DNA of 64,000 nt, taken from Cavenderia fasciculata (taxonomy: Eukaryota; Evosea; Eumycetozoa; Acytosteliales; Cavenderiaceae). A program made the position numbers and the translations under genes. A model generated the notes under the pieces. The model made no database searches. It was given only the letters and a program-made list of their open reading frames with translations, and had not been told where the DNA came from. Below, piece by piece: positions 4,274 to 53,881 of this stretch (positions are counted from its first letter, which is position 1; the number at the start of each line of letters is the position of its first letter). The stretch spans positions 3,782,674-3,846,673 of the forward strand of contig NW_004457729.1 of the NCBI RefSeq assembly GCF_000203815.1, written 5' to 3'.

Positions 4274-6969
4274 ATGTTTAAAAGAAAATCAATGAGACTA
4301 TCACCTCAAGGGAATTACATATCATTGCCTAGAGGTGGATATGTCGTCAAGTCGGATAGACTGGGGAACATACAGTTTGGAGTGCCACCCGAGACAATCA
4401 AAGATTCGATGGAACTCAAGATTGACGTACCTACCATATACGTGTTTCCAGAGGATCTGTGGGATCGTCGAACAGGTATCAATGCCGCCGAGGCAGAGTT
4501 CCCAGCCTACTTTAACTTTTTCATACTCAAGAGAAAGGTGGCATTTGTGTGCACCAAAGAACAAGAACGTCGTATCAGAGTTGTCTTTCAAGAGACTCTT
4601 TTAGGACCATCAGAATTTAATCAAGGTTTAACTCCACCTATTTCACTAGATAATTCAAATAATACATCAACTTCAACGACAAATAATAGTAATAATAGTA
4701 GTCATAGTGGACATAATAGAACTCATTCAAGAACAGGATCAACAACAACACATAGTGGAGGATCACCATTACGTGGATGTACGGCAGCACATTTATCGAC
4801 CAATGAATTGGTTAGTAAGAATCCATCAGACTTTCTTCAAGAGTTTGCACCTAGCTATCCCATCGAAGAAATACCCAATCTAGAACTAGAATGTAAATAT
4901 TTAAGAACTTTCAACAGTGTAGACGAACTGTTTGACTTTGTATTATTCGATGACAATGGTGTAGCACATCTACCCAAAGGTGTAGAAATCCACTACCTTG
5001 AACAAGAGTCGGCATTCAAGGTGATCCATCGTGCCACCGCCGAAGAACCACTCGAGGAGGATCAAGTCGTCTCATTCCTCCCATCCAAGATCATGTTTCC
5101 AGACATTGTAAATCGAATCTCTACCGATCTATTTGATCCCCCAACATTTGGTATCACAATCATTGGATCAAGTCATGGTTTTGATCCAAAAAAATCAACT
5201 ACCGGTTTTGTTTTATGGGTAAACAAAAGAGGAAGTATGTAAAAAATAGAATAGAATAGAGAATATATATATATAAGATATTAATTATTTCTTTCTTTTT
5301 TAAGTAATGATTGATCCACCATTAAATAGTAGTAATTTTTTATTAAGTCAAGGTGTACCAACTAGAAGAGTGGATCATATTATATTAACGCATTGTCATG
5401 CTGATCATGACTCTGGTACATTCCAAAAGTTGTTGGAAGAGTATCAGATCACTGTTGTAACAACACCAACCATTTTGAACTCATTTTTAAGAAAATACAG
5501 CGCATTGTCCAACCTCAGTGCCGATGTATTGCGTCGACTATTTATCTTTCGTCCAGTCATGATTGGTGAACCCATGACCATTGCTGGTGCAGAGTTTAAT
5601 TTCTTTTATACTATTCATACAATCCCTACTATTTCATTTGAAGTATTTTATGGTGGAAAGAGCGTGTAAGTCAAAACAAAAAAGAAAAGAAAACTATATA
5701 TTTAACTTACTTTATATTCTTTTTTTTTCTAGATATTATTCAGGTGATACATGTTTTGATCCAAGTAGAATTAAAGAAATGCATTCAAAAAATATAATGA
5801 ATACGGCAAGAATGAATTTCTTTTTAAAACCTTGGAATCATACGATTGTGTTGCACGAGGCTGGTGTACCACCCATTCACACGCCAGTCACTGTATTGTC
5901 GGCATTGTCCAACGAGACCAAGAACCGACTGTACTTGGTTCACATATCAGAGCATTCGTTGCCCAAAGAGTCGGGACTCAAGATTGCACGTGAGGGTGTG
6001 GCACACACGCTGCGTTTGGATGTGGCCAAGCAGTCGCACAGCGAAGCAGTCGATATTTTAAAGTTGATGGAGTCGGTTGATATATTCAAGTCGATCCCAT
6101 TGTCGCAGGCCTGCGAGATTCTTCGTACGGCCATGCGAAAGCAGTATGCGGCAGGTACAGTCATCATTGCGCAAGATTCAGAACCTGACGCCTTTTTCGT
6201 GGTGGCGTCGGGTGTTGTCAAGGTGTCGGTTGGCGGTATTGAAAAGAACCTGATTGTAGGCGACTACTTTGGTGAAATGTCGTTGATTATGGGTGGATTG
6301 CGGTCGGCGTGCGTCAAGGCCAACACTGACGTCGAAGTACTCGTCTTTAGCAAAGAAGACTTTTTGTCGATCACACGAAACAGTACCGACTCTATCAACT
6401 TTATCACCAAGTTGTGGGAGATGCGAAATGAAAAGTCGTGGGAGACTATCAACCTCAACAGCGTCTTGATGCGTTGCACCAACTCACAAAAAACCTTTTT
6501 ACAGTCGATTCTGCATAGAGAGCAACTCGAACAGGGACAACACCTCTGGAAACAAGGCGATATCGCCACCTTTGGCTGCTTGGTCGCCGAAGGTGCCCTC
6601 GAAATCCTCGGACACGATTCACTCGAACCTTTTGAAAAGGGTTCTTTTTTAGGAGACACTTCTGCAATGTCTTCCATACCTCCTCTTGAACATAAAACTA
6701 CTGTCATTGCAAAAGAAAATGTAAAATGAAAAAAAAAGAAAAAGAAAAAAGAAAGAAAGAATAATATTAATAATAATAATAATCACTAACACAACACCCT
6801 CCTTTATATCAATTGAATTTAGAGTGTAATATATAAAGTATTAGCAAATGATTTATTTAGATTTTTTGAACATAATCCAGGATTGTATTTGGCATTTTTA
6901 GATACCATGTTTATCGATGCCATCCGAGATGAACAAGTTTATGAATCTATAAATAATTTTACTTATTAA
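4274..6969 (+). CDS. Metallo-beta-lactamase/cyclic-nucleotide-binding protein (GbpA/GbpB phosphodiesterase type)
   Basis: Four exons, 4274-5234, 5305-5665, 5733-6720 and 6823-6969, join in phase to 818 residues. An N-terminal region with an Asn/Ser/Thr-rich insert is followed by a metallo-beta-lactamase domain with the zinc motif HCHADH at residues 350-355 and a downstream YYSGDT aspartate motif. Two cyclic-nucleotide-binding (CNB) domains come next. The first has a recognisable phosphate-binding cassette (GDYFGEMS followed by an Arg). The second is degenerate. This order matches the Dictyostelium GbpA (PDE5) and GbpB (PDE6) cyclic-nucleotide phosphodiesterases, which hydrolyse cGMP or cAMP and are regulated through their CNB domains. 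Other MBL-CNB proteins of unknown activity exist, so catalysis is inferred. I chose the ATG at 4274 (an upstream in-frame TTG is not a likely start). The last exon supplies the end of the second CNB domain and lies outside any long open frame. Confidence 0.85.
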
Positions 6970-23714: not shown

Positions 23715-26700
23715 ATGAAAATACAACCTCTATTTGTGGTAGTATTAGGAATCATCACCTATATGATGATAGTGGTACATGGAGGCAAACCACTGCCAAC
23801 ACCCTCTGATATACACGTTGACATGACACTGTCTGCTACATCATCTGTTCTATCATACAACACAACGACAGGATGTTCAATGGCCGGTGTCGTCCTTCAA
23901 GGTGCTTTCAACTCGAATTTCAGTATTACAACTGCCAAAACTTTCCAACCTTCTCCAGTAAGTAAATTATACAACATTCCATTTCTATGATTTATTATTA
24001 TTTACATTTATTTTATTTTAGGTAGCAGGAGGTATGCCAACAGGAGTTTGTCCATCACATCTTGAATACAATGAAAACAGTTGTTGTGATCAAGAACAAT
24101 TTGGTATTTTGAGTGCACAAATGCAAACTGCCAATACTATTTTTGGAAGATGTCCAGCCTGTATGAACAATCTTTGGGATTTGTGGTGTGCTAGTGGATG
24201 TTCACCCTACCAATCACAATTTATGATTGTTGACAAGACAGCCCCCTACATGTACAACCATGTCAACTATACCAAGGTAGCATTTGCCACCTACATTCTC
24301 GACCCAGTCTATGCCGAAGGTATCTACAACTCGTGTCGTGATGTCATTGCCAATGGCAACGTGCCATTTGCCGCACAGTATCCATCGTACCAAACCTTTT
24401 TCAATGACTTTTTCGGAGGCAATAACCCACAATTTGGCATCAACTTTATATTCGATCCCGTCAATGGCTACAGTTCCAACGTTGCCGTTCAAAATTGTTC
24501 CGAGAGTTGTTCTTGTACCAGTTGTCGTGACCTCTGTTCATTCCCTGGTGAATATGGTGATTTTAGAATGATCAATGAATCAATCATTCCAAATACTTAT
24601 TTATTTGATAAACAGTAAGACTGAAACAAAAGAAAAGAAAAAAAAACAAACATATATATATATATATATATATATTAATTCTAATTAATCTACTTTTATT
24701 TTCCATTTTTAGAGTACCAATATTATCAGTTTGGTTATTATTTGGATATTATTTATTCTTGTTGACATTATTCACAACGATTTCGATTTGGTTGATCAGA
24801 AAGATATTACAGAGAAAGAGACGGTATGTGGCTATTGGATTGGTGTTGATTGTTTTCATTTACATTTCGGCTATTTTCTTGCCCGTCATTTCTGGCATCG
24901 TGCCTACGTCATCGGATACTTGTAATTATCAAATGCCACATGGCCAAGATTGGGCATGTGCATTGGTCATTACATCATTCTCGTATTCGTTGGCCGTACT
25001 TGGTTTGATGGCCTTGTCATCGACCGTGCTCTACTTGAAATACCGCTCCGAGCAACAACGCATCCACTACCAAAACCAACTCAACAATCAGATCCCTTCC
25101 AATGGGTCGATCTACTCGTCACGTCTCGGCGACAAAAAGGGTGGATACCCCAGCCCATTGTTGACGTCGCAAGAGTCGCGTTTCAAGGATATTGGCATGG
25201 ACGACCCATCACTTGTGCAAAAGGCATTCTTTTTGCTCGGTCGTCTCGTGTCTAGATACCCGCTCGTCACCATTGCAGCCTGTCTGGTGTTTACCGGTGT
25301 CTGCTCGATTGGTATCCGCTTTCTTGTCATCGAAGAGGATCCCGTCAAACTGTGGGTCAGTCCCACCAGCAGATCAGCCGTTGAAAAGGAGTACTTTGAC
25401 AGCAACTTTGGTGCATTCTATCGTATTGAACAACTCATCCTTACACCGGTCGACCCCAACGTCACGATTGTCGGTAACAACCAGACCCTGATTGCCGAGC
25501 TTGCGCGACTCGAGATCCAACTCATGAACCTGTCGGCAGTCTATGAAAACGAGACATTAGTGTTGAGCGACCTCTGCTTCCAACCCACTCACAGAGGTTG
25601 TCTCGTCGAGTCAATCACTGGTATCTGGCAGCGTAACCTCGCGTTGATTGGACAGTCTTCGTCCGCCTTCCAGACACAGCTCAAGGGCTGTCTTGGCAAC
25701 CCGCTCAACACCAACTGTATGGACGCTGTAGGTACGCCCGTCAACCCGTCGGTCGTGCTTGGTGGATGGTCTGGTTTGCCTGCCGACGCAGTCAACGCAT
25801 CTGCCTTTGTCACAACCTTCCTCCTCAAGAACCCACCCGAGTTGCTCAACCAGGCCATGGCATGGGAGCAGGTCTGGCTCGACACGGTCCAAGCATACAA
25901 CCGCAACAGCAGCCGTCTTCTCAACGCTGCCTACTCGGCCGAGCGTTCCGTCCAAGACGAACTTTCCCGTGAGAGTGCTGCCGATATTTCAACCATCGTC
26001 ATCTCTTACTCTGTCATGTTTGTCTATGTCTCTATGGCACTTGGCCGTTTCTACCCACGTCCACAACGTTTCCTATCTTATATTATCAACTCTAGATTCT
26101 CTTTGGGTCTCTCTGGTATCTTGGTAGTCGCATCGTCTATCTGTATCGCGGTTGGTCTCTGTTCATTTGGCGGTATCAAGGCAACACTCATCATTTCCGA
26201 GGTCATCCCATTCCTCGTGTTGGCAATTGGTGTCGACAATATCTTTATCCTCGTCAACACGTTTGAGAATCTCTATGTCACTGCCTACGACAGCAATACC
26301 CGGTCGTCTGCCAAACCACCCATTGAATTGACCCTCGCCCGTGCCATGGCCCGTGTCGGTCCCTCCATGGCCCTCGCCTCTCTCTCTGAATCACTCGCCT
26401 TCCTCCTTGGAACCATCACCAAGATGCCTGCCGTCGTCGCATTCTCTGCCTACGCGTCCGTCGCCATTTTATTCGACTTTTTGCTCCAAATCACAGCCTT
26501 TGCCGCATTGCTCGTGCTCGATACCAAGAGATCAGAGTCTCGTCGTATCGACTGTATCCCATGTGTGTCGTTGGATGATGGAGACAATTCCGACGACGAC
26601 GAACCCGAAGTCAACGAGGAAAAGATGCCATTGGCCGCACACGAAGACTACATGTCGACCAACTCATCCTACAACCCCGTCTACAAGAAAAAGGATAGTC

Positions 26701-28097
26701 TTTTAAAGGTCGCCTTTAAAAAGTATTATGCTCCCTTTGTCATGCACCCCATTGTCAAGATTGTCGCCGTCGTCGTCTTTTTGGGCGCCTTCCTCTTGGC
26801 CATCACCCTATCATTTGACCTCCAACTTGGACTTGACCAACGTGTCGCTCTGCCAGGTGACAGCTACCTCCAAGCCTACTTCAGCGAGATGGACGAGTAT
26901 TTAGAGGTCGGACCACCATTCTATATCGTCATTAAGGGTGCCTACAACTACACAGACTTTAACTCACAGAACCTACTCTGTACCATCCAAAATTGTACCG
27001 ACACGTCTGTTGTCAACGTCTACAACAACGCACCGTTTGTGCATCCAGGTGTCAGCTCGTGGCTCGACGATTACATGTCGTGGGCTGCCAACCCATCGTG
27101 CTGCGGTGTCATGCCAGACGGGTCTTCGTGTATCCCCGGTGAGTCGACCAACTGCACCGGCTGCTTTACACTCACCAACGAGGACCGTCCCAACCCACAA
27201 CAATTTGTAAAGTTCCTCCCCACCTTTTTCAACTTTTCAGTCACTCCCGGTGGTTTGTGTCCTGTCACTGGTCTCGCCTATGCATCCGATCTCAATATCC
27301 AAAACGGTTCAACCATCATTGCATCACGTTTCGATGGCTACCATTCCACACTCCGCACACAAAACGATTTTATCAATGCCCTCAAGGCTGCCTATTATTT
27401 GGCCGATCATTTTAGCGATGAATTCTCCATCTTTGTCTACTCTGTCTTTTATGTCTACTTTGAGCAGTATCTTACCATTCAGAGTATCGCTGTCATGGCT
27501 ATTGGTCTCGCTCTTGCCGGTGTCCTAGTCGTCTGTCTCATTCTCCTTGCCAACCCCGTCATCTCACTCCTTGTCGTGCTCTGCGTCGCCATGGTGTCGG
27601 TCGATCTTCTCGGTGTCATGTATCTCTGGAATGTCAACCTCAATGCCGTCTCGGTCGTCAATGTCGTCATGGCCATTGGTATCTCTATTGAATTCTGTGT
27701 CCACGTTGCTCACGCCTTTATCCGTGCCCCCGACACCATGGACAAGTCTGAAAAGGCCAAATACGCCCTCACCGAAGTTGGTAGTTCCATCGTCAGTGGT
27801 ATTTTCATCACTAAATTATTAGGTGTTGTAGTTTTAGGTTTTTCAAAGTAAATATAAACAAAATAGTAGACATTATTGAATGCGTGATGTGATGAATGAT
27901 TATTAATATTTTCTATTTCTATTACTAGTTCTGAAATCTTTAGAGTATATTATTTCCGTATGTATATTTCGATTGTTATACTCGGTGCATTACATGGATT
28001 AGTTTTATTGCCAGTTTTACTTAGTTTCTTTGGATCTGATAAATTCAACTTTTCAAAATGGTGTAAAAAGAATAATCAAGATTCATTGGATGATTAA
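23715..28097 (+). CDS. NPC1-type lysosomal sterol transporter
   Basis: Four exons (23715-23957, 24022-24614, 24713-27847, 27929-28097) join in phase to 1379 residues, close to the 1280-1340 usual for NPC1. A signal peptide (about residues 1-23) leads into the Cys-rich NPC1 N-terminal sterol-binding domain (CCDQEQF, CPACMNNLWDLWC). Then come the first transmembrane helix, the large luminal loop, and the sterol-sensing domain (about 728-885) with the hallmark GVDNIFILV. A second Cys-containing luminal loop and a C-terminal RND-type helix bundle (from about 1195) follow, with NAVSVVNVVMAIGISIEF. NPC1 accepts cholesterol from NPC2 in the endolysosome lumen and exports it. The last short exon encodes the final helix and a hydrophilic tail ending DSLDD; the LLNF-type lysosomal signal of mammalian NPC1 is absent. 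In dictyostelids the substrate is probably the local sterol. No linked NPC2 gene is visible. Confidence 0.95.
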
Positions 28098-34874: not shown

Positions 34875-36789
34875 ATGGGATCTGCAACATCTGAAGATTT
34901 TACTGAAGTAGATGAATGCAATGTTTTTGTTAAATATCTACCATGCGAATATACTGAAAAGGGTAAGTAATGCAAAAACCGATCGACATGGCAACTCAAT
35001 GACATCCATCTACTCTGAACTAATCGAGCCCCGATTTCTTTTTTTTTTTTTTTTTTGTTTTTTTTTTCCCCTTTTCTCTCTTCTTTTTATTATTTAGATC
35101 TTTTCAACTTGTTTCTGCCACATGGATCGATCATCAATACCAAAGTGATGGTCAATACCAAGACTGGAAGTAGTCTTGGATATGGATTTGTCAGATTCTC
35201 TGAGCCATCCAATGCCAAGGACGCCGTTGCCAAGATGAACCGTCTCCAAATCGGCTACAAGACCTTGCTTTGCAAGCTTTCCAAGCCATCCCAAGCCCCA
35301 GTCATCAACCCATCCAACATGGTCGAAGACACTGAGCCAAGAGATCCATCGGCATCCATATACGTCCGTGTCTTGTCACCCACCATCACTGACGCACAGC
35401 TCCGTGCCGCCTTTGAACCATTTGGCGATGTCATTGAGAGCCAGGTACTCATCGACCAGGCCTCTGGCAAGTCCAAGCGTTCAGGATACGTCCGTTTTGC
35501 CAATATCACCGAGTCGACCAACGCCATCACCGTCATGAATGGTAGTTATCATTTGGGTGGTGCTCCATTGATTGTCAGATACTCTTCATCAAGTAAATCA
35601 ACCAAGCAAGCTCAACAAGCTCAACAAGCTCAACAAGCTGTCCAACAACAACAACAAGCTGTTCAACAACAACAACAATTACAACTTCAATATTATCAAC
35701 AACAAAAACATTATTCTTCATCCCAACCACTTATCATTCAACAACATGAACGCCAGACATCTCAAGTCGTTCCACCATCACCAAAACATTCACCACCACA
35801 ACAACGTCAGTATATTCTTGACCATCACCATCACCACCATGGTGGAGCTTCTTCTGCTGCCGCTCAACAAGCTCAACAACAACAACAACAACAACAACAA
35901 CAAACCCAACTTGTATATGAACCAAACCACAATCAATCACAACCAACATACGCTTATATATATGCCGCCGATCATCAAGGATATTATCCTGGTGATCATC
36001 TCACATACGCTGCCCCTTTGGGCTACCACCACCCTCACCACCCACATACCATCCACCAATATATTCCAGTGTCGGCATCGGCCGCCTACCATACTAGCTA
36101 CGACTATGGATCGTCGTCGCCATCACCTCCAGGCTCGCCCACCCACTACCCCAACGGCGCCACATACTCTACCGCCCCACCCACCTACTATATTTATTCA
36201 ACCGCCGCACCACCAACCACCTACTACACCTCAGCTAATAACAATACTAATAATACTAATAATAATCATGTTAATTTAAATTCCAGTACTAACCTTTTAA
36301 ATAATCAACATATAAATGTTTCATCCTCTTCGTCATCCATTTCATCCTCTTCATCCACCCCATCATCTCCACCATCACCCTCTATAAATTATGCCGCCTT
36401 TATTGCCTATCCCTCAAGATCAGTTTCTCCCAATCAACCAACTGACTTTGGAATCAAAAACACTCTCATTTGCACATACCGTTATGATATCGAGTTTTCT
36501 GAACTCTATGAAACTTTTTCAAGATTTGGTTCATTAAAAAGTTTAAAGGTAAATATTAAATATAATATTATTTATTTATATTTATTTTATTAACATTTCT
36601 TTTTTTCTTTTTTATTTCTAGATTAATAATAACAAATTAAACAAATTAAAATGTTTTATTACTTTTATAAATGTTGAAAATGCAGTTAATGCTCAGATGA
36701 TATTGGATCGTAGTAGAATTGGAAATCAAAATATTAGAGTTAAATTCCAATCAGACACTTTACCACAATCACATTCTACCACCTTTTAA
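34875..36789 (+). CDS. RNA-binding protein with three RRM domains and Gln-rich linker
   Basis: Three exons (34875-34962, 35098-36548, 36622-36789) join in phase to 568 residues. RRM1 (about residues 15-93) is split by the first intron: NVFVKYLP gives RNP2 and GYGFVRF gives RNP1. RRM2 (about 115-190) has SIYVRVLSP and SGYVRF. A long linker of poly-Gln, His, Tyr/Pro/Ser-rich and Asn/Ser-rich sequence follows, and RRM3 (about 481-560) ends in the third exon. Two adjacent RRMs, a long flexible linker and a third RRM is the ELAV/CELF-type arrangement, used in mRNA splicing, stability or translation control. I do not assign it to a named ortholog. The low-complexity linker could support condensate formation. 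The unusually long gene-free DNA upstream suggests complex regulation. Confidence 0.85.
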
Positions 36790-39362: not shown

Positions 39363-42209
39363 TTATGTATGATTGATTCTACATAAACTACAACCAAATG
39401 AATGTTCTTCACCATTTGGTGGATGGGGAACTCCACAACTGCATTTTGGCAATTGATCCTTTGGTGTCTTGACAATGGTTGTACTTTGCGAATGACAACT
39501 ATTACAGAAATGTGTTTTACCCCAACAAAAGAATACTGACATGTTACAACAAAATTTACATTTATATTCACTAGAAATGGAAATTATTAATAAGTAGTTC
39601 AAAGTTCAAAATGATCATTTGATTTGTAACATACATATATTCTTTTCCATGAGTTTTGCAATTATCAGCACCATCACAACTACATCCACCACATAATAAT
39701 TCCTCTGGTTTAAAATCTACATTATTCTCTCCACATGCTTTCTCTCCTCCAAAATATGGTTTCTAAAAAAATAAATTAAAAAGGTTAGAAATAATGATCT
39801 TTTTTTCTTTTTCTAATACTATAGTCATACTTTGCATTTAAAACAAGGGAAAAATGATAGTCTATCCATAACATAACCCTCTTCATCATTGTACCACCTA
39901 CAACTTGGATCTTTCAAGTTGACACCTTTTTCAGGACCTTGTGATTTTAGTCTTTGTAGACCCTTTTCCTTGATGACATTGTATAGATCCATTATTTCGG
40001 TCAGTTCCTTTTTCAGAGCTGGATGTTTAATGTATTTCGGACAAATTGCACACTTCATAAAACCAAATGATATTCTTGAACTATTCCATTTACCTGCCAA
40101 CTTTTTCTTGCAACATTCCAAATGTACAATATGTCCACACTCTAATTGAATACATGGACTACTACCCAATTCTTCAACCCAACAAATATTACAATAATCT
40201 GATGATTTCTAAAAATTAAATAAATAAATAAGTAATCCAATTTTCTTTTCCGATTCTTTTTTGTTTTCTTTTCTTACTTGAGTTTGATTTGCATATGGAC
40301 AATCATCAACTAGACATGGTGGACATTTAGTTTCACCAGAGATACCACAGCAATTATGACCACATGCCAACTTCTTTTTACATGATAGCATGTACTTTTG
40401 CATGCATTCTGGTTGATTACAACATTGATTAGAGAGTGTAGAACAATTACTTGGTTTCAAAGACTGTAGACAATATCTACAATGTTTAGAGGTAGAATAA
40501 TTTTTAAATTGGTCACATGTATACCCAAGATGATATGGTTTTTCAAAACACTCTGAACAAAATACAGTTGTACATTGTAAACATCTAAATCTATATAATT
40601 TCTTATGTTCAATTGCTTGTCTACTTAATTCATTTCCATTTTGATCCTAACAAAATAAAATAAATAAATAAATAAATAAATATATATATATATTTTTGTC
40701 TTTTTGTTTTTTTATAGACTTACATATTCTTTTGCATTATTGTCTTGTGGCGTATTTTGATTATGTTGTAACTTTTCCATTAAAACACTACAATTTGGAC
40801 ATTTGAAAAAGGAATCTTTGTTTGTTGAAATGACCTCATCCAATGATGCACTATCATATTTGGCATATTCTTGATCACTCAACACTTGTTTAATATCTGG
40901 ACTTGATAATGATGCCTTGCAACTCTTGCATTTGATCATTGAAACCTTTTTCATTTCAATCTTTTTCATAATTGATTGATGTAAACATTCTTTACAATAA
41001 ATATGTCCGCATTGCTAAAAATAAATAAATATTTAATATAGATCTATATAAATATATTAATATTATATTATTATTTTTTGTGATATTTACATCTAAAAAT
41101 ATTAAACTTTCAACAGCCAATTGTTTTTGACATTTGACACATTTTGTTTCTAGATCATTGTTGGTTTGTTGTTGTTGTCTTGATTTTTCATGTTCCTCTC
41201 TTTCATTTTCCAACAATTCAAGTACCAATCGTCTATTGTTTTCCTCTTCTTCAACCAATTGAGCACGTCGTTCATCTTCAATTAGTTTACGTGCAAATTG
41301 TAATGATTTGAATTCTTCATCCTCCTCGATATAATAATTATGATGATCTTCCAAATCATAAAAACTATGATTACTTGCATTCATTTCTTGATTAAATGGG
41401 TTTCCATTATTTGTAGAAGAAGTTGAAGTAGTTGATGTAGTTGAAGTTGAAAAAGGATTGAATGGTGGAATACCATTAATATTATTATTATTAAATGGAT
41501 TATTACCACTACCATTATTGTTATTATTATTATTATTATTATTAACAAATGATGATTCTAAACTATTTTTTGTTGTTTGAGTTGGTGTTGAATTATTACT
41601 AGTACTTATTCCATTACTACTGTTATTAGTAGTAGTATTGTTAGTGTTAATGTTGTTGTTGTTGGAACTATGAATATTTAATAAATCTTGTTTAAATAAA
41701 TCCTCTAATAGCTTCTTTGGATTCATTACATTCTCTCCGATACCTCTAATATATTGCCCAAAAAATCCTTGATTGTTGTTTGGTGGAGTAGATGATGCCG
41801 AAGTAGACGTGGATGTTGTCGATGATGACGATGTAGTATTATTTGCACTAGTATAATTTGTTAAATGGTTAGGGTTATTACTTTGATTAGTACGATGTAA
41901 CATTTGAAAAGGTGATGATAGTGTAGCTGCAGCTGCAGCAGTTGTAGTATTGGTAGTTGATGTCGATTGATTGTCTCTTTGTTGTTCATACATAATAGAA
42001 TCGCCTTCTTCGTCGTCATCATCAACATCTATGTGTCGTGACGCAGAATAAGACATGGGAGTGACCGTCTCTTTCGGAATATGCGAGGTGGTAGTGGTGG
42101 TCATTACCTCATCCTCTTTAAAGCAAGCATTGAAATGGTCACCAAACACATTAACCTCAAACGCCAATGCACAGCCCGGGCACTGTATTTGATCAACACT
42201 TGGATTCAT
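39363..42209 (-). CDS. E3 ubiquitin ligase: UBZ-like finger, RING1-IBR and MYCBP2-type RING-Cys-relay module
   Basis: Six exons (42209-41091, 41014-40724, 40646-40278, 40208-39831, 39762-39635, 39570-39363) join in phase to 830 residues. Order: a Rad18/UBZ4-like C2HC finger (CPGC...HFNAC, residues 10-29), long Asn/Ser/Thr linkers, and an acidic helix resembling a MIU/UIM ubiquitin-binding motif then a coiled coil (about 295-350). A RING follows (C357, C360, C375, H377, C380, C383, C402, C405), then an IBR (C445-C514). A Cys/His-rich linker with CGHNCCG comes next. From residue 599 the sequence follows the C-terminus of animal MYCBP2/PHR E3s: CNICW, GHIVHLEC, FGFMKC, RWYNDEEGY, YFGGE, CKTHG, YKCKFCC, THFCNSCH, HPPNGEE, FGCSLC. 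MYCBP2 relays ubiquitin between two cysteines; the likely counterparts are C784 and C822. Ubiquitin transfer to Ser/Thr is therefore plausible but not shown. The RING-IBR plus RING-Cys-relay fusion is the odd feature. Confidence 0.87.
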
Positions 42210-50176: not shown

Positions 50177-53100
50177 ATGTCAAAAAGTATACAATCATTC
50201 ATCATGATTGTACTACCATTGATGGTTGTTACACTACTTTCAATGTTTGGTGGTGTCAATGCTATAGCACAACCCCCACTACTTCCTAATCAATGTATGT
50301 ATTATTATTATTATGATCATTACTATCGGGATTGATTGATCATTTACTAATGGATTTGTCTTGTTTTCTTTAAAAAGTGCCAAAGGTTCAATATTTGGTT
50401 CAACTATTTCAATTACAGAGTCTGTATCCAGACACGGCATCATATTGTCAAGACCCACCACTAGGCCCACACTTTATATGTGTTCCTACCAATATAACAC
50501 AACAATCGATTATGACTCAGATAAATCTTACTGGTACAGGTGTCGAAGTACTCCCATCAAATCTAATTACAAATCAAGATTTTGGTATACTCTTTTCATT
50601 GTTTGTTATCAATTAACTAATCATTCAATCCTTAAACAACCCTCTCTAATTTAATTACCATTTCCAATTTCCCTATTCTACTATAAAACAGATCTTTAAA
50701 AGATGTGATTGTTTCAGATGTATTTTTTAGAGGTGTTTTAAATGCAACTACTGAATTGTATGTAATATTAAATATTAAACTATTAAATAATATTAAATAA
50801 TAATGTTGATATTAATATAGTTTTTTTTTTATACTCTTGATAGTACATGTATAAATTGTAATATTCAATCATTTCCACCACTTAGTAATTCTATGACGAC
50901 TATATTATCCTATTTAAAGTTGGTTGATAATCCTATATCGGGGCCTATCAATATAACAAATAGTCTTTTAGGAAAAATCATCATCTATTCAACCAACACT
51001 TCACATATACGAGACACTAATTTTATTCTTGAAAATACAAACACTGCTTTAAAATATTTGTAAGTATATATATATAAGAAAGAACAATATAATATAATAT
51101 TGATATATCAAATTAATGTGTATTAATACATTATTATCTTTTTATATTCTATAGAGAGATTCAAACCAATACCATTGGTTTTTCAATATCACAAGTTCCA
51201 AATCTTTTATTTTTGTTTGTATCATTCATTCCCATTCCCATTCCATCCATCCATCCATCTTATTTATTTATTTATTTATTTAATTTTTAGGACTATTTAT
51301 TTTGGACCAAATTTTGATATTGACACAATTGATGAAAATTTTAAATATATTGGACATGATCTTAACTTGATGTATGTTGAAGGATTAGAAATATTAATAT
51401 TAATCCCCTTCCCCTATTATTTATTTTATATTATATTAATATATTTATTTAAATTAGTGTATTTAAAGATTTATTTCCAAATCCAATGAAAACCTATTTA
51501 TTCCCAAATATAAATTTAATCAATTGTACAGCCGGGCTTGAATTTTATGATATCAACTTTCAAGGTGCAAAAAATGTAGTTGATCTCTCACAATCACCAA
51601 ATCTTAGAACTTTAACCATTAAAAACTCACCACTACTTGATGATGTTGTTTATCCAGTTGGTGTTGGTAAATTATTTACTTTAATGTATGTTTAACATAT
51701 ATATTTATATTTATATAAAAAATATTCAAACTCTATATAGAATAACTATTTACTTTTATTTTTATTTTTTTTATTAGGACAATATCAAATTGTGGATTAA
51801 AAGGATACCCACAATTTGATGTTTATTTCAAGATGCCAGCAATTATATTAGCGAATAATACCATTTCACAACAACCACCGGTATTGAATGTTTTGGATGT
51901 TGTGCCAGTTTCTGATAATCCGTCGACCATTGATTTCTCACACAATCAAGCAACTGGACACTTGGACAATAGTTGGTGTTATGTTTCATCAGACGTTAGA
52001 AACAACCAATTGAGCGGACCTCTGCCAAACTGTTTTATATGTCATGCAATAAGGGACCCATATATAGCAGCGTCGCTTGAAAACAACCAATTCTCAAATT
52101 GGCCCATTCAAACTGGTCAGAATACAACATGTGATTACCGTGTCATACAACCAATCAATTATATGGAGGGGTCACTCTTTTTGACGCTGTTGGTTGTCAA
52201 TGGAGGATGGAGCCCTTATTTCGAGTCATCGTATTGTCGTTTGTTGTCGTCGCAAATACCCAACTACTCGTATTCGTGCAAGGTGAATGCCTCGATTGCT
52301 AGTCAAATCATGGCACAGGGATACTTGCCCGTGACATTCCCCGACACGCAACAAACTGTAAATATGGCAATCAAGATTGTTCCACCGACTATTGAAAAGG
52401 TTAATCAGTTTGTGTATGGAGGTAGTCAGGTACAAGGGTACGGGTTTATCATCTCGGGCAACGGGTTTTACAATACTCTCAACCTGTCGATCAAGATTGG
52501 CGGCAAACCATGTACCCCGGCAGAACTGGGATTGACCTATGTCACGTGTATAGTGTCACAGCCACTCGACGAAGGCATCAATTTGCTCGTCATGTCATTC
52601 CGTCAATACACCATTACATATGACTTGCGATTTGTACGAATGTATCCGGTTGTGACGGCCGTGTCGTCGCCACCGCGTGTAGGTGGTGTGTTTACAGTGT
52701 ATGGTGTGTTTGGAACCAACCATACTGGCACCCAACTGGCACTAGACGGTGTGCCATGCACTATCACCAACATATCATCAAATATGATAGAGTCTACTAT
52801 AGGGCCGGGTAGCGGTACAAAGAATGTGACTGTATGGGTACAAGGTATTCGCGCAACCTACCGAAACATATTTGTCTACCTCGAAGACATACAAGGATGT
52901 GTTAGTAATTGCTACGGACACGGTACATGCGAGTACTCGACCAGTCTATGCTTTTGCTATGCCGGATACGCCGGCGAGTCGTGTCAGTACAAACGACCCA
53001 ATTTCAACTCGACCATCACACAGTACATCAATAATGGCACGGTCATTCAAAATGGAAACACGCAGTTTGGGTTTAGAGTGGCCGGTATACGCGAGGTCAA

Positions 53101-53881
53101 CTTTATGGGCGACCTTATTCGCGAGTGGGCCATCAACAATCAGTGGAATGTTTCGGCCAAGTACCTAGACAATATCTGGATGTACAGAGTCACCTTTCAA
53201 AATACAATGACACTCACCTACTTTGTCGAAGAGTTTCAAGAACCTGCCAACAGGACATTTGCCGATATTCCCATGTTCCTCGATAAAGGTGCTTTAAAGA
53301 TGACCGTCAATATCACCAACTGGCCGTACCTCTCATCAACCAACAATATCCAACTATTAATTGAATCGTTTTCGATGGGTAACCATAGTTGTGAAGGCAG
53401 TGAAATTGGTCGATCGATTACGACCAACTCTACAGCCAACTCGCTGCAATACATTATGATTGAAAGAAATGGAAAGACTCTTTACGGTAGATTCTTGGAT
53501 CGTGTACTATCAGACAATCGATCAACCTTTTCACAAACGCTTGTTGTCAACCAAACCACTGAAAGTCTATTCGTTGCCATTAATCTTCCCTATGGTACGG
53601 AATTGTTAATTGACCCAGATTTTAGTGTCATCCTATCTCGACCTGATGACATTGACCAAGATGAATGTTCTGCATCCAACAAAAGTGATAGACAATGGGT
53701 TATAGTATCTGTATCTGTAGTGGTATCAGTAGTTGGTGTGTCACTACTCATCATCTCGGTTGTCATTATCAAAAAGAAACTTATCATCTCTTTCCGTAAT
53801 GGATTTAATATTGTATATCGTGGTAATTCAAATGCTTCTTCAAATGAATCAAAATTAAAACCTTTAAATTCTGATCTCTAA
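50177..53881 (+). CDS. ComC-type LRR/IPT-TIG/EGF transmembrane receptor, paralog 2
   Basis: Eight exons (50177-50294, 50378-50600, 50692-50757, 50844-51059, 51155-51214, 51291-51371, 51458-51685, 51778-53881) join to 1031 residues. The first intron is phase 1 and all later ones phase 2, as in paralog 1. A signal peptide (about 1-31) precedes LRR-like repeats in small exons. The large exon encodes the end of the repeats (NNQLSGPLPNCFIC), IPT/TIG-like domains, an EGF-like cluster (about 703-732), the FGFRVAGIREV domain, a transmembrane helix (about 970-992) and a tail of about 40 residues. For exon 2 I chose the GTTTGT donor after 50600 because the nearer GTATAC site would put a stop codon in exon 3. 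Role by family: developmental cell-surface signalling; ligand unknown. Confidence 0.88.

Follow-up and report, generated by a model that had tools for sequence, protein, structure and literature searches.

One predicted polypeptide of Cavenderia fasciculata combines an RBR-type RING1-IBR front with an MYCBP2-type RCR module

A gene of Cavenderia fasciculata is predicted to encode a protein in which an RBR-type RING1-IBR is followed, in the same chain, by a complete MYCBP2-type RING-Cys-relay (RCR) module. We put the probability at about 0.7 that this product, as judged from its sequence, is a thioester-forming ubiquitin ligase of the RCR type with an RBR-derived RING1-IBR as its front end. As far as a search of the open-licence literature shows, the layout would be a variant not previously described. 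The gene lies on the minus strand (42209-39363) of the window, by which we mean the whole 64,000-nucleotide stretch analysed here. In the genome searched (31.0 Mb, 21 contigs) the window is C5:3782674-3846673, and the gene is hence called C5. Positions of all features are collected in Table 1.

An earlier note on this DNA had described an 830-residue product, and this was reproduced from six predicted exons that join into one open reading frame; the five introns (76, 77, 69, 68 and 64 bases) are all GT-AG. Its central observation, that a single polypeptide holds an RBR-type RING1-IBR together with a complete RCR module, is borne out, and a second gene of the genome, the C7 paralogue, has the identical order. 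A single C7 exon (L008 2857 to 1694, 388 codons) covers the RING1-IBR linker, the IBR, a PHR-type zinc module and the RING, and ends past the first relay cysteine. As that exon runs uninterrupted, IBR and RCR form one open frame in C7, and the presence of IBR, zinc module, RING and part of the tandem-cysteine (TC) domain in one exon of a gene with the same order makes their union in one polypeptide firm. An artefact of the gene model can be ruled out on this ground, and also because the junction between the IBR and the PHR-type module of C5 falls within exon 3 (residues 471-593).

Table 1. Features of C5, numbered by window position, and of the two related genes, numbered within their loci
Feature	Position	Strand	Details
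Whole C5 gene	39363..42209	-	(UBZ-like)-(low complexity)-(MIU-like helix)-RING1-IBR-(PHR-type zinc module)-RING-TC; 830 aa
C5 exons	42209-41091, 41014-40724, 40646-40278, 40208-39831, 39762-39635, 39570-39363	-	Predicted splicing
UBZ4-like motif CPxC-x11-HxxxC	42123..42182	-	Residues 10-29; pattern only
MIU-like LQFARKLIED	41274..41303	-	Residues 303-312, in acidic stretch before RING1; pattern only
RING1, RBR type	40904..41141	-	Residues 357-410; intron 41090-41015 inside; Lys359 at E2-contact position
IBR domain	40515..40801	-	Residues 445-514; intron 40723-40647 inside; Pfam PF01485 on fragment, and hhalign
PHR-type CRxC/CGHxC zinc module	40299..40481	-	Residues 526-586; common to the genome's PHR orthologue
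RING of RCR module	40041..40193	-	Residues 599-649; aligned with MYCBP2 RING
Tandem-cysteine (TC) domain	39366..39845	-	Residues 715-830, three exons; alignment to MYCBP2
C729, putative first relay cysteine	39733..39735	-	MYCBP2 C4520 by alignment
E740, putative triad acid	39700..39702	-	MYCBP2 E4534 by alignment
C777, putative second relay cysteine	39525..39527	-	MYCBP2 C4572 by alignment
H788, putative triad histidine	39492..39494	-	MYCBP2 H4583 by alignment
C7 paralogue, 742 aa	L008 3947-1405	-	C2-RING1-IBR-zinc module-RING-TC
C8 PHR/MYCBP2 orthologue	L009 2303-9900 + L010 3-1850	-	PHR, APC10/DOC, zinc module, RING, TC; partial assembly

Residues 592-830 of C5 match the crystal chains of the MYCBP2 RCR module with phmmer E values of 1.5e-70 (5o6c) and 5.7e-70 (6t7f), the alignments starting at chain residue 6 or 7 and ending at 262 or 260. 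These two chains were the sole PDB matches at E up to 1. The RING is followed directly by the tandem-cysteine zinc domain (E about 1e-70), and 22 of the 23 cysteines in the aligned 5o6c stretch are cysteines in C5, while the remaining one, C4614, faces an alignment gap adjoining C807. The MYCBP2-type C-terminus seen in the earlier note is thereby confirmed over residues 592-830.

To locate the relay residues, cysteine pairs 52 positions apart (the spacing of C4520 and C4572) were sought in the aligned 5o6c stretch. Four such pairs were found, and only the one at chain positions 143 and 195 also gives Glu at 4534, His at 4583 and Phe at 4573, 4578 and 4586. The mapping uses the MYCBP2 numbers C4572, E4534, H4583, F4573, F4578 and F4586. 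On spacing and on the identities of the five further residues, the relay cysteines of C5 are C729 and C777, and the Cys-His-Glu triad at the second site consists of C777, H788 and E740. C784 and C822 had been proposed as the relay pair; they align instead with C4579 and C4631 of MYCBP2 and presumably bind zinc.

F4573, F4578 and F4586 presumably form the Thr pocket of MYCBP2 and give it its Thr selectivity. At these positions C5 has W778, F783 and S791, so that one of the three is kept. Since the genome's own PHR orthologue keeps just two, we do not hold the Phe cluster to define the RCR family; it bears on substrate choice rather than on the relay. With two of the three changed (F4573 to W778, F4586 to S791), the hydroxyl preference of C5 is uncertain, and it may favour a different acceptor than MYCBP2 does.

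The front of the protein had been read as a RING followed by an IBR, as in RBR ligases, and profile comparisons agree. When residues 356-525 of C5 were searched alone, the Pfam IBR family (PF01485) scored 29.6 bits (cut-off 24.3, E 7.3e-7); a scan of full-length C5 listed no IBR at E up to 1. The IBR of C7 scores 38.3 bits (E 1.5e-9), also over the cut-off. With hhalign, C5 and C7 together were compared with RBRs from five of the genome's 12 other IBR loci; the alignment extends from RING1 through the linker to the IBR, at a probability of 97.3% and E 2.3e-11. In the PDB, RING1 and the linker of C5 match HOIL-1 at E 2.7e-5, with the IBR outside that alignment, and a profile of the two paralogues matches HOIL-1 at E 7.7e-6. 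RNF4, with a plain RING, is a further match to C5 RING1 (E 6e-4, or 0.016 with the two-paralogue profile), and RING1-IBR of C7 alone gave no PDB match at E up to 0.1. C5 thus appears to have an RBR-type RING1 followed by a RING1-IBR helix. The earlier note had proposed profile searches of both parts, and these return RBRs for the one (hhalign, E 2.3e-11) and the MYCBP2 RCR module for the other (phmmer, about 1e-70). We also considered whether RING1 might have been copied from the RCR RING and rejected this, as hhalign gives 14% and E 0.002 for that pairing versus 97% and E 2e-11 for RBRs.

A RING2 (Rcat) with its catalytic cysteine is missing from C5; after the IBR, residues 526-586 form a CRxC/CGH module. 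The same CRxC...CGHxC zinc module precedes the RING in the genome's PHR orthologue, and so the unit common to C5 and PHR is zinc module-RING-TC. The idea that the MYCBP2 part simply stands in RING2's place is therefore not supported: this part comes with a zinc module and a RING of its own, which gives the C5 chain two RINGs. The TC domain as a changed RING2 was likewise tried and set aside. At the sensitivity that few sequences allow, a TC profile of four sequences gave an hhalign probability of 0.4% against RING2 of seven of the 12 other IBR loci and 0.2% against RING1-IBR of five of them, one of the five (L019) having an incomplete IBR.

The residue of C5 RING1 aligned with HOIL-1 V284, which we take to be the valine of CPVC, is Lys359. 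According to the available portion of PMC9834252, V284 contacts F63 of UbcH7, and the change V284A abolishes E2-Ub discharge. RBRs have a hydrophobic E2-contact residue here, before the second cysteine of RING1: among the 12 other IBR loci, the 11 that can be read carry Ile (10) or Val (1), and L013 has no readable start. C5 departs from this pattern in RING1, and its RCR RING keeps Ile601 (CNIC). Because RING1 has Lys359, we infer that the RCR RING loads the E2 and that RING1-IBR acts as a ubiquitin sensor or regulator; in C5 the E2 probably does not bind at RING1. Since the C7 paralogue carries Ile there, the Lys359 argument covers the C5 gene alone, and exclusion of RING1 as an E2 site need not hold across the whole family.

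These observations bear on two other ways in which the chain could work. RING1 could recruit the E2 as in RBRs and hand ubiquitin directly to the relay cysteine of TC, which would then be a substitute RING2, with the RCR RING merely structural. Such a scheme draws on the RBR type of RING1-IBR, on the contact Ile kept in C7 and on the loss of RING2, which leaves TC as the only recognised thioester site, but it must contend with Lys359 in C5 and with a complete RCR RING, from which the match to MYCBP2 continues across the entire RING-TC linker; we regard it as unlikely. Somewhat more doubtful still is a two-stroke ligase, with E2~Ub loaded by RING1 as well as by the RCR RING and with RING1-IBR either bringing a second E2~Ub or extending chains on ubiquitin placed by the relay. 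By inspection both RINGs have a full set of Cys/His ligands, and in C7 both carry Ile at the contact position, yet Lys359 of C5 speaks against it, as does the lack of a RING2 that could take ubiquitin from RING1.

We favour a relay ligase whose RBR front responds to ubiquitin. E2~Ub would dock on the RCR RING, and ubiquitin would pass to C729 and then to C777, which, with H788 and E740, would transfer it to an acceptor, probably the hydroxyl of a side chain. This order (RCR RING, C729, C777, acceptor) is proposed because the two cysteines and the triad are conserved. Less securely, RING1-IBR would not load the E2 in C5, since Lys359 replaces the usual Ile/Val contact. It may serve as a regulatory or ubiquitin-binding platform, like the allosteric ubiquitin site at the RING1-IBR helix of RBRs, and may gate the relay. 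MYCBP2 itself is described in the accessible part of PMC9527308 as using a two-cysteine relay and a Cys-His-Glu triad on Thr/Ser targets, and an excerpt of PMC12664034 reports the C4520S mutant as catalytically inactive. RBRs bind activating ubiquitin at the RING1-IBR helix, an allosteric site, according to the part of PMC9834252 available to us.

The earlier note had also named a UBZ-like finger and a MIU-like helix upstream of RING1. Simple patterns for both do fit (residues 10-29 and 303-312), but a match to a family profile is absent: neither fragment found a Pfam family at E up to 10, in a search whose filters drop most very weak matches. When the 60-residue segment that holds it was shuffled 100,000 times, the MIU pattern arose by chance in 1297 cases. 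For the UBZ pattern, chance occurrences numbered 18 in 100,000 shuffles of residues 1-50 and 104 in 5000 when the entire protein was shuffled. In RNF216 a MIU helix is predicted ahead of RING1, and this helix makes no contribution to allosteric activation (PMC9834252, in the portion available), which weakens the parallel. Going by the motif patterns, a ubiquitin-reading module in C5 is possible.

The C7 paralogue is the best match to C5 RING1-IBR elsewhere in the genome (E 1e-17, the next being 5.5e-4), and it opens with a C2 domain (Pfam E 2.3e-21). From RING1 to TC, 174 of 474 aligned positions are identical between C5 and C7 (37%), and over the aligned stretch the two genes have zero intron positions in common. 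The duplication looks old. Since RING1-IBR is kept in both despite differences at 63% of aligned positions and the lack of a common intron position, it must have persisted for a long period. Ordinary accretion would have an RCR paralogue of PHR acquire a piece of an RBR that plays no special part in catalysis and is retained for scaffolding or localisation. The unlike N-termini, C2 in C7 and low complexity with motifs in C5, do suggest freely shuffled front ends, but a RING1-IBR with its ligand cysteines kept in both paralogues makes accretion of this kind very improbable. We advance only tentatively, from the sequences, the wider proposal that RBR-RCR hybrids form a ligase class of their own, and an old one, in which the RING1-IBR sensor would gate esterification by the relay and ubiquitin, or a ubiquitin-like protein, bound at the front would switch the relay on. 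If this is true, the class would exist in two versions, one UBZ/MIU-like and the other membrane-targeted (C2).

The third RCR gene, C8, is the PHR orthologue, with PHR (E 5e-32) and APC10/DOC (E 3.7e-5) domains over the Pfam cut-offs and an RCC1-like match (E 4.7e-8) that lies below its cut-off (33.2 versus 150 bits). A Pfam scan of C5 listed no RCC1-like, PHR or APC10/DOC domain, and C5 is not a PHR orthologue in this sense. Searching the genome with the C5 RCR gave seven exon matches, distributed over three loci (C5, C7 and C8). With the human TC sequence as query there were five matches, spread over these three loci; neither query found a further TC locus. The IBR family, searched in the same way, exceeded its cut-off in 19 stretches, which belong to 13 loci, including C7. 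C5 and C8 were absent, C5 because an intron splits its IBR. In the window itself, plus-strand genes encode an NPC1-like protein with a sterol-sensing domain and the NPC1 middle luminal domain (24759-27851), a protein with RRM domains (35055-36593) and a ComC-like protein with a TIG domain (51833-53881). ComC-like surface proteins are associated with dictyostelids, and the AT-richness, short introns and Asn-rich stretches point the same way.

Within the RCR, identities are 47% for C5 and human, 48% for C8 and human, 43.5% for C5 and C8, 42% for C7 and human, and 39% each for C5 and C7 and for C7 and C8. In a four-sequence tree, the grouping of C5 with C7 against PHR with human is best (AU 0.84), the alternatives standing at 0.155 and 0.23, differences without significance. 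The earlier note had hoped that such a chain could show how RCR ligases arose. The data do not carry that: TC has no profile similarity to RING2 (0.4%) or RING1-IBR (0.2%) with the few sequences used, a PHR orthologue is present in the same genome, and the four-sequence tree leaves the order of events unsettled. They do suggest that the RCR module and the preceding zinc module move between proteins as a unit. To our knowledge, MYCBP2 has no such RING1-IBR front. Scans seeded with short peptide patterns, which can miss relatives, found no relative in viral contigs or in bacterial and archaeal genomes.

Among the matches listed in open-licence PMC full text, seen as titles and abstract openings, no paper announces an RBR-RCR layout, and the portions of PMC4327156, PMC5666861, PMC12773759 and PMC11354881 available to us make no mention of such a hybrid. 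For Dictyostelium discoideum, the available parts of two of these papers count 10 (PMC5666861) and 8 (PMC11354881) RBR genes; the word MYCBP2 is absent from the main texts of both, and PHR from that of PMC5666861. Two smaller natural proteins with a full relay behind an RBR front would widen the RCR class, and C5 and C7 are compact enzymes for in vitro work. With them one can test whether a relay ligase can be placed under the kind of allosteric control by ubiquitin that is typical of RBRs. An RCR module here stands beside a PHR orthologue in a non-animal genome.

Compared with known systems, C5 resembles MYCBP2/PHR (PAM, Highwire, RPM-1) throughout RING and TC, where it is 47% identical to the human protein over 234 positions and keeps the relay cysteines and triad, and it resembles the genome's own PHR orthologue in the CRxC/CGH zinc module that precedes RING-TC. 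Unlike MYCBP2/PHR, it has RING1-IBR in front in place of the PHR, APC10/DOC and RCC1 domains, and two of the three presumed Thr-pocket phenylalanines are changed. Among RBRs, HOIL-1 (RBCK1) is nearest in the PDB search, the likeness being in RING1, the RING1-IBR linker and the IBR, and the acidic MIU-like stretch before RING1 recalls, as a pattern, that of RNF216 (PMC9834252, available portion). Unlike RBR ligases, C5 has no RING2/Rcat and carries Lys at the E2-contact position of RING1, so that catalysis must lie in TC. The C7 paralogue has the same order of RING1-IBR, zinc module, RING and TC and is 37% identical to C5; it differs in its N-terminal C2, where C5 has the UBZ/MIU-like stretch, in the Ile of its RING1 and in the positions of its introns.
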